Position numbers and translations under genes: made by a program. 64,000 nt of DNA from Desulfonatronovibrio magnus (lineage in GTDB: Bacteria; Desulfobacterota; Desulfovibrionia; Desulfovibrionales; Desulfonatronovibrionaceae), in the NCBI RefSeq assembly GCF_000934755.1, contig NZ_KN882175.1:331736-395735 (forward strand), given 5' to 3'. Below are positions 9,366 to 54,670 of the stretch, in pieces (within the stretch, counting starts at the first letter, position 1; every line of letters begins with the position of its first letter). The notes below the pieces were generated by a model. It was not told the origin of the DNA, did no database searches, and saw only the letters and a list, made by a program, of their open reading frames with translations.

Positions 9366-10627
9366 ACTTCCACATCATCACCCTGGGATGCAAAATCAAT
9401 CAGTATGAATCTCAGGCCATTACTGAATCCCTGGCCCGCAGAGGCTTAAACTGCTCCAGCACTCCTCAGGAAGCAGAGATCATTATAATTAACAGCTGTG
9501 CAGTAACCACGAGAGCCGTCAGGGATCTTAAAAAATGCTGCCGCAGAATGGCACGACAGAATCATACAGCAAAAATAATTGTCACCGGGTGTGCAGCACA
9601 AGTTTTTGAGCAGGAACTCCAGAGCCTTGATGAAGTGGCACAGGTAGTTGCGCAAACACATAAAACCAGATTCCTCCAGGGCCTTGAACAATTGGAAAGT
9701 ACCTCCTGCCAGGAACAGGATTTTTTCATCTCAGACTTTTACAGGTCACGGGCCATTGTCAAGGTACAGGATGGGTGTGATCACAATTGTACCTATTGCA
9801 TAGTTCCTCAAACCCGGGGGGTACCGAGAAGCAGGGAACCACAAATCATTCTCCAGGAAATAGAAGGTCTTTTGCAAAAGGGGTTTACAGAAATTATTAT
9901 GGGAGGGATTAACTTGCGTCTTTATGGCAGAGATTTAAGCCCTCAGAAGGATTTCTGGGATCTCCTGGCCTTTGTTTGTCGCCAAACCATGGCTGCACCT
10001 GAAAATTTTCGGCTGCGCATGAGCTCTCTTGAGCCTTCAGAACTTAATTCCAAGGCGCTTGACTGCCTGAACAGGTATAATCAAATCTGTCCGCACCTGC
10101 ATGTATCATTACAAAGCGGCAGCCCGGCAGTTTTAAAAAAGATGAACCGGTCTCACTGCAACCCTGCAGAACTGATACGTTTTTGCAATGACCTGAAATC
10201 CATCTGGCCTGTTTACGCTCTTGGCGCAGACCTATTAACCGGATTTCCCGGAGAAACCCATGAAGACTATCTTGACACTTTCAGGATTATGAACCAACTT
10301 CCCCTTACTTATGCGCATGTCTTTCCATTTTCTCTAAGACCGGGAACGCCCGCAGCCAGATTCTCAGGCCAGATCAGTTCTACTCTGAAAAAGGAAAGAG
10401 CAGCCTCTTTACAAGCAGCAGCTCTATGCTGCAAACAGAAGTTTCTGCAAAAAGTTCTCAGTCAGCCCAAGCTGCAAGTGGTCATAGAAAATGAAAACAG
10501 AGGAATGTCAGAATACTATATTGAATGTACTGTGCTTGATACTTTTCCTGAACTCCCCCCGAGAAGCATGATCCAGGCTCAGCCACTATCAGTGCAGGAC
10601 AAAGGGCTTTGTGTAAAAGCACTGTAA
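9362..10627 (+). CDS. mtaB: tRNA ct6A37/t6A37 methylthiotransferase MtaB-type
   Basis: A radical-SAM methylthiotransferase, 421 residues. The N-terminal MTTase cluster cysteines are Cys10, Cys46 and Cys77; the radical-SAM triad CDHNCTYC gives Cys139, Cys143 and Cys146. The opening MNFHIITLGCKINQYES and RGVPRSR favour MtaB (acting on t6A37) over MiaB or RimO. The TRAM-like C-terminal portion is short. Translationally coupled to mnmA by an ATGA overlap. Confidence 0.9.
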   Translation: MNFHIITLGCKINQYESQAITESLARRGLNCSSTPQEAEIIIINSCAVTTRAVRDLKKCCRRMARQNHTAKIIVTGCAAQVFEQELQSLDEVAQVVAQTHKTRFLQGLEQLESTSCQEQDFFISDFYRSRAIVKVQDGCDHNCTYCIVPQTRGVPRSREPQIILQEIEGLLQKGFTEIIMGGINLRLYGRDLSPQKDFWDLLAFVCRQTMAAPENFRLRMSSLEPSELNSKALDCLNRYNQICPHLHVSLQSGSPAVLKKMNRSHCNPAELIRFCNDLKSIWPVYALGADLLTGFPGETHEDYLDTFRIMNQLPLTYAHVFPFSLRPGTPAARFSGQISSTLKKERAASLQAAALCCKQKFLQKVLSQPKLQVVIENENRGMSEYYIECTVLDTFPELPPRSMIQAQPLSVQDKGLCVKAL

Positions 10628-10935
10628 CTTACAAGCTCTTCACCCGGGCGGCCCGGGACCGAACATGCGAGTAACTGAAAATGAGTCTCCTCTATGGACA
10701 TTGGGACAGTCCCCGCGAGGTACTATAAAAAAGATTGATGCTGCATTGGTTCCTGGAAAAAATTTGCTTAAATGATAAAATTTACACAGCGAGGGACAGT
10801 CCCAGTGCCAGGTGCATATTTCCCATCTTTGACGGAAATTTTCTGGCAAATGTTCATGTATCATAGGCAAAAATCGTATAAATGTGAAAACTGTAAACGT
10901 CAGATTTTGTTGATAATTTGGTTTTAGTTACTTAG
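10625..10935 (+). repeat. R2 composite repeat, copy 1
   Basis: It begins with a palindrome (10625-10676) holding AAGCTCTTCACCCGGGCGG and a GCGAGTAACT edge. The core contains two GGGACAGTCCC-type palindromes and the block GAGGTACTATAAAAAAGATT. It ends TTTGGTTTTAGTTACTTAG. The same unit occurs in reverse at 25137-25460 and truncated at 51218-51436. The GC-rich hairpin next to the mtaB stop may also act in transcript ending. Confidence 0.85.
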
Positions 10936-10982
10936 AAGGATGAATAGAACCAGGAATAATGGACAGGGAACAAAAATTTTGA

Positions 10983-25009: not shown

Positions 25010-25136
25010 GTGCTCTGTCTACCCTGTCTGCCTTTTGAAAAAAGTTATAGCTTGTCAAGATGAAAAAAATTTGATAATGATAAGTTACAACCTCTCATGT
25101 TATAATCTCCTTGTCTGTTCACCAAGCTTATTTTTT

Positions 25137-25460
25137 CTCACAGGTTCGGTCCCCGACCGCCCGGGTGAAAAGCTTCTAAGTAACTAAAACCAAATTATCA
25201 ACAAAATCAGACGTTTACAGTTTTAATGTTTTTACGATTTTTGCATATGATTGATGCACATTTGCCTGAAAAATTCCGTCAAAGATGGGAACTTTGCGCT
25301 TGGCACAGGGACTGTCCCTCGCTGTGTAAATTTTGTCATTAAAGCCAATTTCTTCCAGGAACCAATGCAGTATCAATCTTTTTTATAGTACCTCGCGGGG
25401 ACTGTCCCAATTTCCAGAAAAGTGACAGACTCGTAAAGTTACTCACAGGTTCGGTCCTCA
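25137..25460 (-). repeat. R2 composite repeat, copy 2 (reverse)
   Basis: Reverse copy of 10625-10935. It runs CTCACAGGTTCGGTCCCCGA, ACCGCCCGGGTGAAAAGC and AAGTAACT, then the shared core with GGGACTGTCCC twice, then AGTTACTCACAGGTTCGGTCC. Both ends carry the palindrome edge. The following 25461-25560 holds short GC-rich inverted motifs (GGCTAAAGCTGGGAAC). With the Hpt fragment this accounts for the 580-bp gap. Confidence 0.87.
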
Positions 25461-29266: not shown

Positions 29267-29308
29267 CTCGCCTTTACACCTCATATTTTAAAAATTTGAC
29301 AAAGGGGA

Positions 29309-29627
29309 CACTACAGCGACATTCTGTGTAAATTATTGTCTGGCCATCGGGAACAGACACTTTTGCCGGACTCAAACCGTAAAACCCGGCGGCAATAGAG
29401 CCAGTCATCTTTACAATTGGTATCTGTTTAGCGCTTTTAAGGAAAGCAGGGGACAGGCACTCCGGGACCCACTTGATCATCAATTTGTGCTCAAAATGAC
29501 TCATTTTCGGGATAAGCGGGTCCCGGAAGAGCAGTCCCCCTCCGGGCTGTATGCCTCCGGGCAGGAAGCCGTGCCACATGCAAAGCGCTAAACAGATACT
29601 ACCATTGAATAAAGTATCACTGTAGTG
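29309..29627 (+). repeat. R4 repeat copy 1, carrying a nested R3 element
   Basis: Left edge CACTACAGCGACATTCTGTG; right edge AATAAAGTATCACTGTAGTG (inverted CACTACAG ends). The body matches the 142-bp R4 at 42588-42729 up to AGAGCCAGTC, where a 180-bp R3 element (29420-29599) interrupts it. Removing R3 leaves 139 bp, close to the intact copy. Confidence 0.8.
29420..29599 (+). repeat. R3 structured repeat, copy A
   Basis: Bounded by perfect 18-bp inverted ends (GTATCTGTTTAGCGCTTT and its complement). Inside, CCGGGACCCACTT (29462-29474) pairs with AAGCGGGTCCCGG (29514-29526). Conserved blocks are GCAGGGGACAGGCAC and CCCCCTCCGGGCTGTATGCC-TCCGGGCAGGAAGCC-GTGCCACATGC. No ORF is present. Copies B and C are at 38253 and 54321. 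Confidence 0.88.
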
Positions 29628-29636
29628 GTAATAGTT

Positions 29637-29808
29637 TAGTAACTTACCGTTTCAATCCTGTAGAAAAAAAACAAGAATTTTTTATAACCTTGAAAGAGCA
29701 ATGATGCCCAAGATCCTTATTCTTCAGCCTTCAGCCTGAAAAGTAAGGTTATCGCCCAAACTTAACTATTCTTGTTTAAATTGGGTCGTGGGCACAGCCC
29801 GCATTAGA
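29637..29808 (-). repeat. R1 repeat, copy 3 (reverse, subtype b)
   Basis: On the minus strand it starts TAATGCGGGCTGTGCCCACG and ends GGTAAGTTACTA. The middle (TTTAAACAAGAATAGTTAAG, GGGCGATAACC, CTTCAGCC heptamers, GATCTTGGGCATCATTGC) is nearly identical to copy 4 at 33728 and differs from copies 1, 2 and 7. Confidence 0.88.
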
Positions 29809-30989: not shown

Positions 30990-31297
30990 TAAAACTCCGG
31001 GAAGTTACTGCATCATCCACTAAGACAAAATAGTGCCAACCCTTTATGAGCTTAACAAGATCAAGCCGAAAGCCTTGACTCTCAGACTGTCTCCATATTT
31101 TGGGAAGTGCTGCAAGGCTCCACACAAATGGCAATACCCTTTAACGAAGCAAATCTTGAAGCTTTCCACCCTATTATGTATGAACATCTTATCGGTTTCT
31201 CAAAAATTTTCAAGTTGTTCTTTTTTTCACTTTATACCGGTCATTGGAGGGAGTAATGGTAAGGGGTTGAAGGATGGAGGCTGGGGATTTAAGGTTA
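30990..31297. other. Intergenic stretch without a supported gene
   Basis: A 90-codon open frame exists on the plus strand at 31033-31305, but it has no ribosome site, no family resemblance and a composition like non-coding DNA. I see no RNA gene or other feature here. Confidence 0.4.
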
Positions 31298-31577
31298 TTT
31301 CCTAAGAAGCTCCTCACCCGGGCGGACCGGGACCTAACCTGTGAGTAACATAAAATAGCCTTAACGCGTTAGAGATTGCCGCGCTCGAAGACTCGCTCGC
31401 AATGACACCTGAGCTGTCAGGGATGTAGTTGCTCAAAACCTGTCACCCACGAGGGAGCCTAAGCGACCGAAACAATCTGTATGGTAAAACCATAATGCTG
31501 TGAATTTATTACTAATTTGGTTTTAGTTACTTGTAAGCTCTTCACCCGGGCGGACCGGGTGAGGAGCTTATAACTAA
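31298..31577 (+). repeat. R5 composite repeat, copy 1, flanked by R2 palindromes
   Basis: Left palindrome 31298-31350 (AAGCTCCTCACCCGGGCGGA, CTGTGAGTAAC). The core has a GATTGCCGCGCTCGAAGACT / CGCTCGCAATGAC hairpin (31374-31406) and ATCTGTATGGTAAAACCATA. The right palindrome 31534-31570 forms a near-perfect stem AAGCTCTTCACCCGG/CCGGGTGAGGAGCTT. The same composite in reverse is at 50816-51070. Confidence 0.87.
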
Positions 31578-31594
31578 ATAAAGTGTCGCTGTAG
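31574..31594. repeat. R4 end fragment
   Basis: AATAAAGTGTCGCTGTAGCG matches only the right edge of R4 and lies directly after the gap stop codon on the minus strand. Confidence 0.5.
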
Positions 31595-33727: not shown

Positions 33728-33904
33728 ACTAATGCGGGCTGTGCCCACAGCTCAATTTAAACAAGAATAGTTAAGTTTGGGCGATAACCTTGCTTTTCAG
33801 GCTGAAGGCTGAAGGCTGAAGAATAAGGATCTTGGGCATCATTGCTCTTTCAAGGTTAAAAAAATTCTTGTTTTTTTCTACAGGACTGAAACGGTAAGTT
33901 ACTA
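33728..33904 (+). repeat. R1 repeat, copy 4 (subtype b)
   Basis: Head CTAATGCGGGCTGTGCCCAC, GGCTGAA heptamer x3, and tail GAAACGGTAAGTTACTA. Nearly identical in the middle to copy 3. The rest of the 454-bp gap between surE and fba (33905-34004) has only weak inverted motifs (AACACA/TGTGTT at about 33977-33994). Confidence 0.88.
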
Positions 33905-34004
33905 TTAATCAGTCACAAATATCGCAAGAGCCTTATATCAGGGCTTTCCCCTGCCGTGCAGAAGGTTGTACCACCTTTAACACAGGCTGTTGTGTTGATT
34001 GAAA

Positions 34005-38189: not shown

Positions 38190-38240
38190 TTTAGCTCCCT
38201 GGGTGTGGCACTAAGGACTGTCCCCAGCCCATTATACAAA
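38190..38240. repeat. REP-like GTGGCAC / GGACTGTCCCC motif
   Basis: GTGTGGCACTAAGGACTGTC followed by CCC is a half-decayed form of the GTGCC...GGGACAGTCCC palindromes seen at 10790, 25305, 41485 and 51258. Confidence 0.45.
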
Positions 38241-38252
38241 AAAGCCCGTAAT

Positions 38253-38414
38253 AGTTTAGCCCTTTTCTAAGGTAAGCAGGGGACAGGCACCCCAGCCCTT
38301 GTTTTTTGTTGATGTAAAACACAGATTTAATAAAACAAGGGCTCGGAGAGCTATTCCCCCTCCGGGCTGTATGCCTCCGGGCAGGAAGCCGTGCCACATG
38401 CAAATGGCTAAACT
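38253..38414 (+). repeat. R3 structured repeat, copy B (divergent stems)
   Basis: The conserved blocks GCAGGGGACAGGCAC and CCCCCTCCGGGCTGTATGCC onward are unchanged. The inner stem is now AGCCCTTGTTTT (38294-38305) with AAAACAAGGGCT (38332-38343), unrelated in sequence to copies A and C but perfectly paired. The outer ends are GTTTAGCC/GGCTAAAC instead of GTTTAGCGC/GCGCTAAAC. The remainder of 38077-38595 shows no gene. Confidence 0.87.
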
Positions 38415-38595
38415 GTTACAAAAGCCCAATATTCCCGGTACAATTTCTGCTGCAGCCATTTATGGGCTTTATTTCAATAAAAATCAATGATAATAGCAGT
38501 TCAACGTTACCTTCTTGCCGGATCCAGTAAAACAAAAATGATTCATACCCCGTAAGAACGAGCCCATACTTCAAGCTTAATTATTTGACAACAGT

Positions 38596-50703: not shown

Positions 50704-50818
50704 CGATCATCTGTTATCTGTTATCTGTTAATTGTTAATTGTTATTTGTTATCAGGTTAAGGCAGTGAATTCAGGCTTTTGTTCTTCAACAATTAACTAT
50801 TGATTTGCTACAAGTAAC
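50704..50818 (+). repeat. R1 repeat, copy 5 (headless)
   Basis: Begins at the TCTGTTA heptamers, has TTATCAGGTTAAGGCAGTGA and TTCAGGCTTTTGTTCTTCAA, and runs into the R5 composite at AAGTAACTA. The GGGCTGTGCCC head is missing. Confidence 0.8.
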
Positions 50819-51070
50819 TACAATCGTATATGTAATAAATTCAAAACATTATGGTTTTACCATACAGATTGCTTCGGTCGCTCAGGCTCCCTCGTGGATG
50901 ACAGGTTTTGAGCAACTACATCCCTGACAGCTCAGGTGTCATTGCGAGCGAGTCTTCGAGCGCGGCAATCCTTGTTGCGAGCGAAGCGAAGCAATCTCGT
51001 GTTAAGGCTGATTTTTTAGTTACTCACAGGCTCGGTCCCAGGCTGCCCGGGTGAAAAGCTTACAAGTAAC
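50816..51070 (-). repeat. R5 composite repeat, copy 2 (reverse)
   Basis: Reverse of 31298-31577, here with ATTGCGAGCGAGTCTTCGAG and a second ATTGC-type arm, GTTGCGAGCGAAGCGAAGCA. It ends with the R2 palindrome (AGTTACTCACAGGCTCGGTC to AAGCTTACAAGTAACT). Confidence 0.87.
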
Positions 51071-51081
51071 TTCAAAAAAAA

Positions 51082-51218
51082 CTGGACCCCGGATCAAGTC
51101 CGGGGTGACGGTTGGAGCAAGTTTTTTACTCTTTACCGTCATTCCGGCGAAAGCCGGAATCCAGGTTTTGATTAGTGTGAGTTGCTCTTGTTCCTATGCT
51201 CCAGCTTTGGAACAAGAG
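51082..51218. repeat. Cluster of three unrelated REP-like hairpins
   Basis: (i) ACCCCGGA/TCCGGGGT at 51086-51106. (ii) ATTCCGGC-GAAA-GCCGGAAT at 51141-51160, with the common GTCATTCCGG...CCGGAATCCAG context. (iii) CTCTTGTTCC/GGAACAAGAG at 51185-51218. They lie side by side between R5 and R2. The first two match palindromes widely seen in proteobacterial intergenic DNA. Confidence 0.8.
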
Positions 51219-51436
51219 GAAAAGTTCCGTCAAAGACGAGAACTTTGCGCCTGGCAAAGGGACTGTCCCTCGCTGTGTAAATTTTTTCATTTAAGCAAAT
51301 TTTCCCAGGAACCAATGCAGCATCAATCTTTTTTATAGTACCTCGCGGGGTCTGTCCCAATTTCCAGAAAAGTGACAGACTTGTAAAGTTTCTCACACGC
51401 TCGGTCCCGGTCCGCCCGGGTGAGGAGCTGCTAATC
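51218..51436 (-). repeat. R2 composite repeat, copy 3 (truncated)
   Basis: Shares AGAACTTTGCGCCTGGCAAA, GGGACTGTCCCTCGCTGTGT and TTTTTTATAGTACCTCGCGG with the other R2 copies, and ends in CTCACACGCTCGGTCCCGG and CCGCCCGGGTGAGGAGC. The far half is replaced by the REP cluster. It ends at the TolC-like stop codon. Confidence 0.85.
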
Positions 51437-54194: not shown

Positions 54195-54320
54195 GACACC
54201 GGGATCGTCAGGGCACGGGATAACAGGACATTTTTTGTTGTAAAGATAAACACTCAAAGACTTTCATATTAGAAAAGCAGGCCCAACTCAATATTTTTTT
54301 ATCATAATATTTTGAAATTG

Positions 54321-54502
54321 GTATCTGTTTAGCGCTTTGCATGTGGCATGGCTTCCTGCCCGGAGGCATACAGCCCGGAGGGGGACTGGCTCTTCCGGGA
54401 CCCACTTGTCCCAAAAAATGAGATATTTTAAGCACAAAATGATGTTCAAGTGGGTCCCGGAGTGCCTGTCCCCTGCTTTCCTTAAAAGCGCTAAACAGAT
54501 AC
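54321..54502 (-). repeat. R3 structured repeat, copy C (reverse)
   Basis: Same 18-bp inverted ends as copy A. Inner stem CCGGGACCCACTTG (54395-54408) with a perfect complement at 54447-54460. Relative to copy A the stem mismatch is repaired. The pseudoknot arm reads ATGCC instead of GTGCC. With the R1 fragment this occupies most of the gap before the glycosylase gene. Confidence 0.88.
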
Positions 54503-54670
54503 TGAAGTTGAACTTTGTCCTGACTCTGGAAACCCAGCATCTCAGCAACAGAAATAATATAGTCCACCTACAGGGAATAAGTTTCGTAGAAACAATATAA
54601 AAACTTGAGTATTGGCCCTGATTCTGTAAAAATGATCCCATTCAGCACTTTGGAACTTGAGAATTCAAAC

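Follow-up and report, generated by a model that had tools for sequence, protein, structure and literature searches.

The window analyzed in this work (the whole stretch of 64,000 nucleotides from Desulfonatronovibrio magnus) harbors three copies of a dispersed repeat, hereafter R3. Copy B is located on the plus strand at 38248..38419, as judged from its ends, its 8-bp duplication, and its alignment with other copies. Its outer ends are GTAATAGTTTAGCC ... GGCTAAACTGTTAC, and the same target duplication, AAAAGCCC, lies on the left (38240..38247) and on the right (38420..38427). This copy is of terminal type B and inner-stem type B, the two arms of the inner stem being AGCCCTTGTTTT (5' arm, 38294..38305, plus strand) and AAAACAAGGGCT (3' arm, 38332..38343, plus strand). 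Copy A (29420..29599, plus strand; flanks TACAATTG at 29412-29419 and TACCATTG at 29600-29607) and copy C (54321..54502, minus strand; flanks TGAAATTG at 54313-54320 and TGAAGTTG at 54503-54510) share terminal type A and inner-stem type A. All three embed a module of 30 nt, placed in copy B at about 38360..38389 (plus strand) from the comparison of long forms with short ones lacking it. An earlier, sequence-only reading had given the exact ends of copies A (29420-29599) and C (54321-54502), but copy B really extends over 38248-38419. The inner stems that it quoted are present: AGCCCTTGTTTT/AAAACAAGGGCT in copy B, and GGGACCCACTT with its complement in copies A and C (with one mismatch in A, GCGGGTCCC). 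The GGGGAC/GTCCCC pairing that it described as conserved is no longer intact in copy B, whose 3' core arm is mutated (GCTATTCCCC, 38350-38359, versus the B consensus GCCAGTCCCC). The predicted folds of the three copies are far beyond chance when compared to shuffled sequences (z of -5.3, -7.7, and -9.7).

Other dispersed repeats occur in the same window. In the region adjoining copy A (29304-29410) lies a degraded relative of a different repeat, which shares the R3 core but has TTTTGCCGG as its inner stem and ACACTACAGCGACA in its ends; L235 and L246 carry better copies. A second family (10624-10938, 25134-25457, 31295-31584, and 50809-51435) is characterized by GGGACTGTCCC motifs, 127 of these 11-mers being present in 797 kb, and by ends like TTACTCACAGGTTCGGTCCCGG; it is also captured within composite R3 elements (456-514 bp) with perfect 8-bp duplications. 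R3 copies have frequently landed in a further dispersed repeat, CCTGTAGAAAAAAACAAGAA...AACCTTGAAAGAGCAATGATGCCC (29666-29737 and 33793-33917).

Searches of the genome and of its relatives revealed a family extending far beyond three copies and present in relatives too. The genome of the window harbors more than 100 copies of 140-182 bp; the terminal pattern GTAWYWGTTTAG occurs at 257 sites, compared to 10 for the reversed control pattern, and probing with copies B and A retrieved dozens of copies each (338-369 first-look candidates). About 0.8 Mb of this genome, plus selected regions, was examined directly. On contig C114 (797 kb), 16 of 19 copies do not overlap any ORF of at least 150 aa, such ORFs covering 81% of the contig, and about half of the copies lie between divergent genes; the majority of copies are intergenic. 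In the 61 genomes searched, matches were confined to the taxonomic family of the window, in two genera. The distribution within the same genus is patchy, with no exact terminal repeat in G001, G002, G004, and G005 and 48 in G003. A scan of GTDB contigs retrieved the core mostly from those titled Desulfonatronospira and Desulfonatronovibrio; the few records under other taxa come from similarly named sediment MAGs and are likely misbinned. One match to the core pattern was found in viral contigs.

At their two boundaries, complete copies carry terminal inverted repeats (14-18 bp, GTATCTGTTTAGCGC or GTAAYAGTTTAGCC) that match each other and are nested in a longer imperfect palindrome of about 56 bp per arm, the termini being GTATC/GTAAY. 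When inward-facing terminal repeats were paired and their flanks compared, 98 of 385 candidate pairs had exactly matching 8-bp flanks, and the other lengths from 4 to 12 gave 0-3 matches; the duplicated targets are A+T-rich (71%). The composite elements enclosing another repeat have perfect duplications, too. Moreover, the flanks of another copy, L023, joined after removing one duplication, align over 125 nt with C114:365528-365652 (window 33793-33917, minus strand) with 93.6% identity, thus giving the empty counterpart of this target site. Uninterrupted counterparts were likewise found for L007, L046, and L022; the empty sites found are paralogous. Two terminal types (A and B) exist, and both ends are of the same type in 127 out of 128 copies. 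A deletion form of 82 bp without the inner cassette (C114:780053-780134) has an 8/8 duplication; most of the other apparent 82-bp copies turned out to be chance second ends within full elements. The matched terminal inverted repeats and the exact 8-bp duplications therefore identify R3 as a MITE-type DNA transposon, and terminal inverted repeats, target-site duplication, shortness without a transposase, dispersed copies, and empty sites are all found, as in bacterial MITEs. Hence, the mobile hairpin element that the sequence-only reading had listed among its options is borne out in this form. We consider it highly probable that each of the three repeats is a MITE copy moved in trans with 8-bp duplications, and that their paired arm changes derive from different source lineages.

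The analysis of 9 subfamily representatives revealed a nested structure with a 17-pair terminal stem, a 9-pair core, and a 15-pair inner stem, in which 95.1% of the cells are paired, compared to 85.5% after shuffling and 32-49% when the sequences are slid. Changes on both sides affect 14 of the 41 pairs, a value reached in none of 500 shuffles. The change of terminal and inner stems on both arms, proposed from the three window copies, is thus seen across several subfamilies and genomes. The proposed pseudoknot did not hold up, its GGCAC/GTGCC half being without covariation and broken in 6 of 45 cells. There are at least three types of inner stem, including GGGACCCACTTG, AGCCCTTGTTTT, and CGCACTTATTTT, each with its own complement, and inner type A combines with either terminal type (since the table of inner versus terminal types mixes inner types B and C, only the matching of terminal types was used). 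In one subfamily the inner 3' arm has been swapped for an unrelated small palindrome, and perfect duplications are found in L080, L226, and L277. Because both these copies and the 82-bp copy without the cassette have perfect duplications, insertion does not strictly depend on the inner stem.

In principle, a transposase acting in trans would recognize the ends of the MITE and move it, inserting it at an 8-bp staggered cut, as DDE transposases are known to do. The paired changes on both arms would come from the source lineages, since there are several subfamilies in which terminal and inner repeats each match within an element, and single insertions, once made, would decay roughly neutrally. 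The matching of the arms may be kept either by the needs of movement or by replication or gene conversion copying one arm onto the other. The mobilizing enzyme might tentatively be assigned to an IS66-like DDE type, because IS66 elements of relatives begin with GTAA and make 8-bp duplications (L137, GTAACTTCTCAATAGT and CAAAAACA; L139, GTAAGCGTCC and GTTGTAGC); our confidence in this assignment falls somewhat short of even. These elements share with the MITE the GTAA-type end and the 8 bp, but not a full terminal repeat: the full MITE ends were found on no IS66 element retrieved, the overlap stopping at GTA(A), and the subterminal sequence of the MITE is absent from every IS66 element found. 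This, together with G003, which harbors many MITE copies and gave no IS66 match, argues for a source enzyme of another DDE type, the resemblance to IS66 being coincidental. We give this possibility an even chance. Against it, these bacteria do harbor IS66 elements that have GTAA ends and make 8-bp duplications, and IS256, also an 8-bp duplicator, gave no match in G000, G006, and G009. Two of the IS66-type elements have a second ORF, located after the transposase in L137:315-2936 and before it in L074:2667-4896, which may encode a DUF4338 (DruA-like) protein.

An autonomous partner with the same ends was not found on contig C114, at 20 unpaired G009 ends, or at the IS66 loci, in genomes that are fragmented; the unpaired G009 ends mostly belong to MITEs with one end decayed. 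Two facing ends 3.9 kb apart (C2:14982-18880) enclose ORFs of housekeeping type and represent two relics.

The MITE reading leaves one aspect less well accounted for, since parts of the core are conserved beyond what terminal recognition alone needs, and this counts against it. Moreover, the core hairpin is also found with other inner stems joined to other outer ends. The 30-nt module has the sequence GGCTTCCTGCCCGGAGGC[A/T]TACAGCCCGGAGG (minus strand of copies A and B); its position is GGCAC(A/G)^GGGGACTG, and about 40 copies of it occur in 797 kb. It is shared by three different repeat families of the window's genome, that is, by R3 (38360-38389 and 29540-29569) and by others (G000 C114:51033, 303148, and 306928), each of which also has copies lacking it (repeats of this kind are at 25268-25351 and 51219-51302 of the window). 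This distribution suggests that small transposons exchange parts. One might go further and suppose that the conserved core, made up of GGGGACAGGCAC, a variable stem, and GAGCCAGTCCCC, forms a separate module recognized by its structure and reused by several repeat families with different outer ends, the inner stem being replaced as a matched pair and the 30-nt module taken up at one fixed point, so that an unknown factor acting on the hairpin would cause unrelated small transposons to exchange parts; we regard this as unlikely. Four R3 cores in tandem (period about 103), lacking intervening terminal repeats, were also observed (L243:336-740).

The sequence-only reading had seen in the paired changes the mark of selection for a folded nucleic acid. 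According to this hypothesis, R3 would be a structured non-coding or cis-regulatory RNA, the fold of each copy being kept by selection; this would agree with the strong predicted folds, the covariation between subfamilies, and, in subfamily A, a lower variation in stems (0.02-0.05) than in loops (0.08-0.10), the latter probably representing inherited variants of the source elements. However, compensatory changes occur between subfamilies only: within subfamilies (124 copies), 116 one-arm changes were counted versus 6 two-arm changes, about 2.9 of the latter being expected by chance, and 61 of the 116 (about half) give mismatches that G-U pairing explains on neither strand. This is the independent drift of arms that the sequence-only reading had itself named as contrary evidence. 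Young B copies, whose stem and loop rates are regarded as equal, change at 0.020-0.029 per base in stems and at 0.014 in loops. Furthermore, the Rfam covariance models, those of HEARO and of any other family included, gave no match at the gathering threshold or at E<=1, close relatives carry the family patchily, and divergent genes flank about half of the C114 copies. Since paired changes fall between subfamilies and arms decay singly within them, the data do not support selection acting on an RNA fold at the individual sites, and a functional RNA appears very improbable. The two ends mirror each other; therefore, two-arm changes reflect several versions of the element and not a working RNA. 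The covariation between subfamilies is genuine and is explained by the structure of transposon ends and the history of subfamilies.

Still less credible is the idea that R3 is a hairpin of the REP/REPIN type, mobilized in the form of single-stranded DNA by a Y1 (RAYT/IS200-like) transposase. An imperfect hairpin core, in which an A-A mismatch is conserved, and ten Y1_Tnp matches in the genome would correspond to this idea. It is already largely refuted by the duplications, since Y1 transposition does not fit 8-bp duplications and terminal inverted repeats; in addition, none of the ten Y1 loci is flanked by the repeats or has the core motif within about 1.5 kb.

These data have an implication for RNA discovery, in that paired changes at the subfamily level can be strong (14 pairs, 0 of 500 shuffles) without selection on the fold of each copy; covariation in dispersed repeats should therefore be tested within subfamilies. 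Moreover, they reveal, between the genes of sulfate reducers from soda lakes, a MITE family that evolves in a modular manner. Nothing relevant on repeats in these genera was found among open-licence papers and, judging from this literature, the family is seemingly undescribed.

Among known systems, the HEARO RNA is likewise a hairpin-rich repeat associated with mobile DNA, and it differs from R3 in that the latter has no Rfam match. REP/REPIN sequences with RAYT are also dispersed, imperfect intergenic hairpins; unlike them, R3 has 8-bp duplications and long terminal inverted repeats, with no association with Y1 genes. IS66-family insertion sequences (L137 and L139) resemble the MITE in that their ends begin with GTA(A) and their duplications measure 8 bp, whereas the MITE has no transposase and its subterminal sequence differs from that of every IS66 element found. 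ERIC, Correia/NEMIS, and RUP are bacterial MITEs folding as a single long hairpin (PMC10969869, PMC2229807). As in R3, these are non-coding elements of 100-200 bp with terminal inverted repeats, present in many, mostly intergenic copies and forming a long stem-loop. The target duplication of ERIC and Correia is TA, whereas the MITE described here has an 8-bp duplication and GTATC/GTAAY termini. It further differs from ERIC, Correia/NEMIS, and RUP in having several subfamilies with exchanged inner stems, and in belonging to another host lineage.
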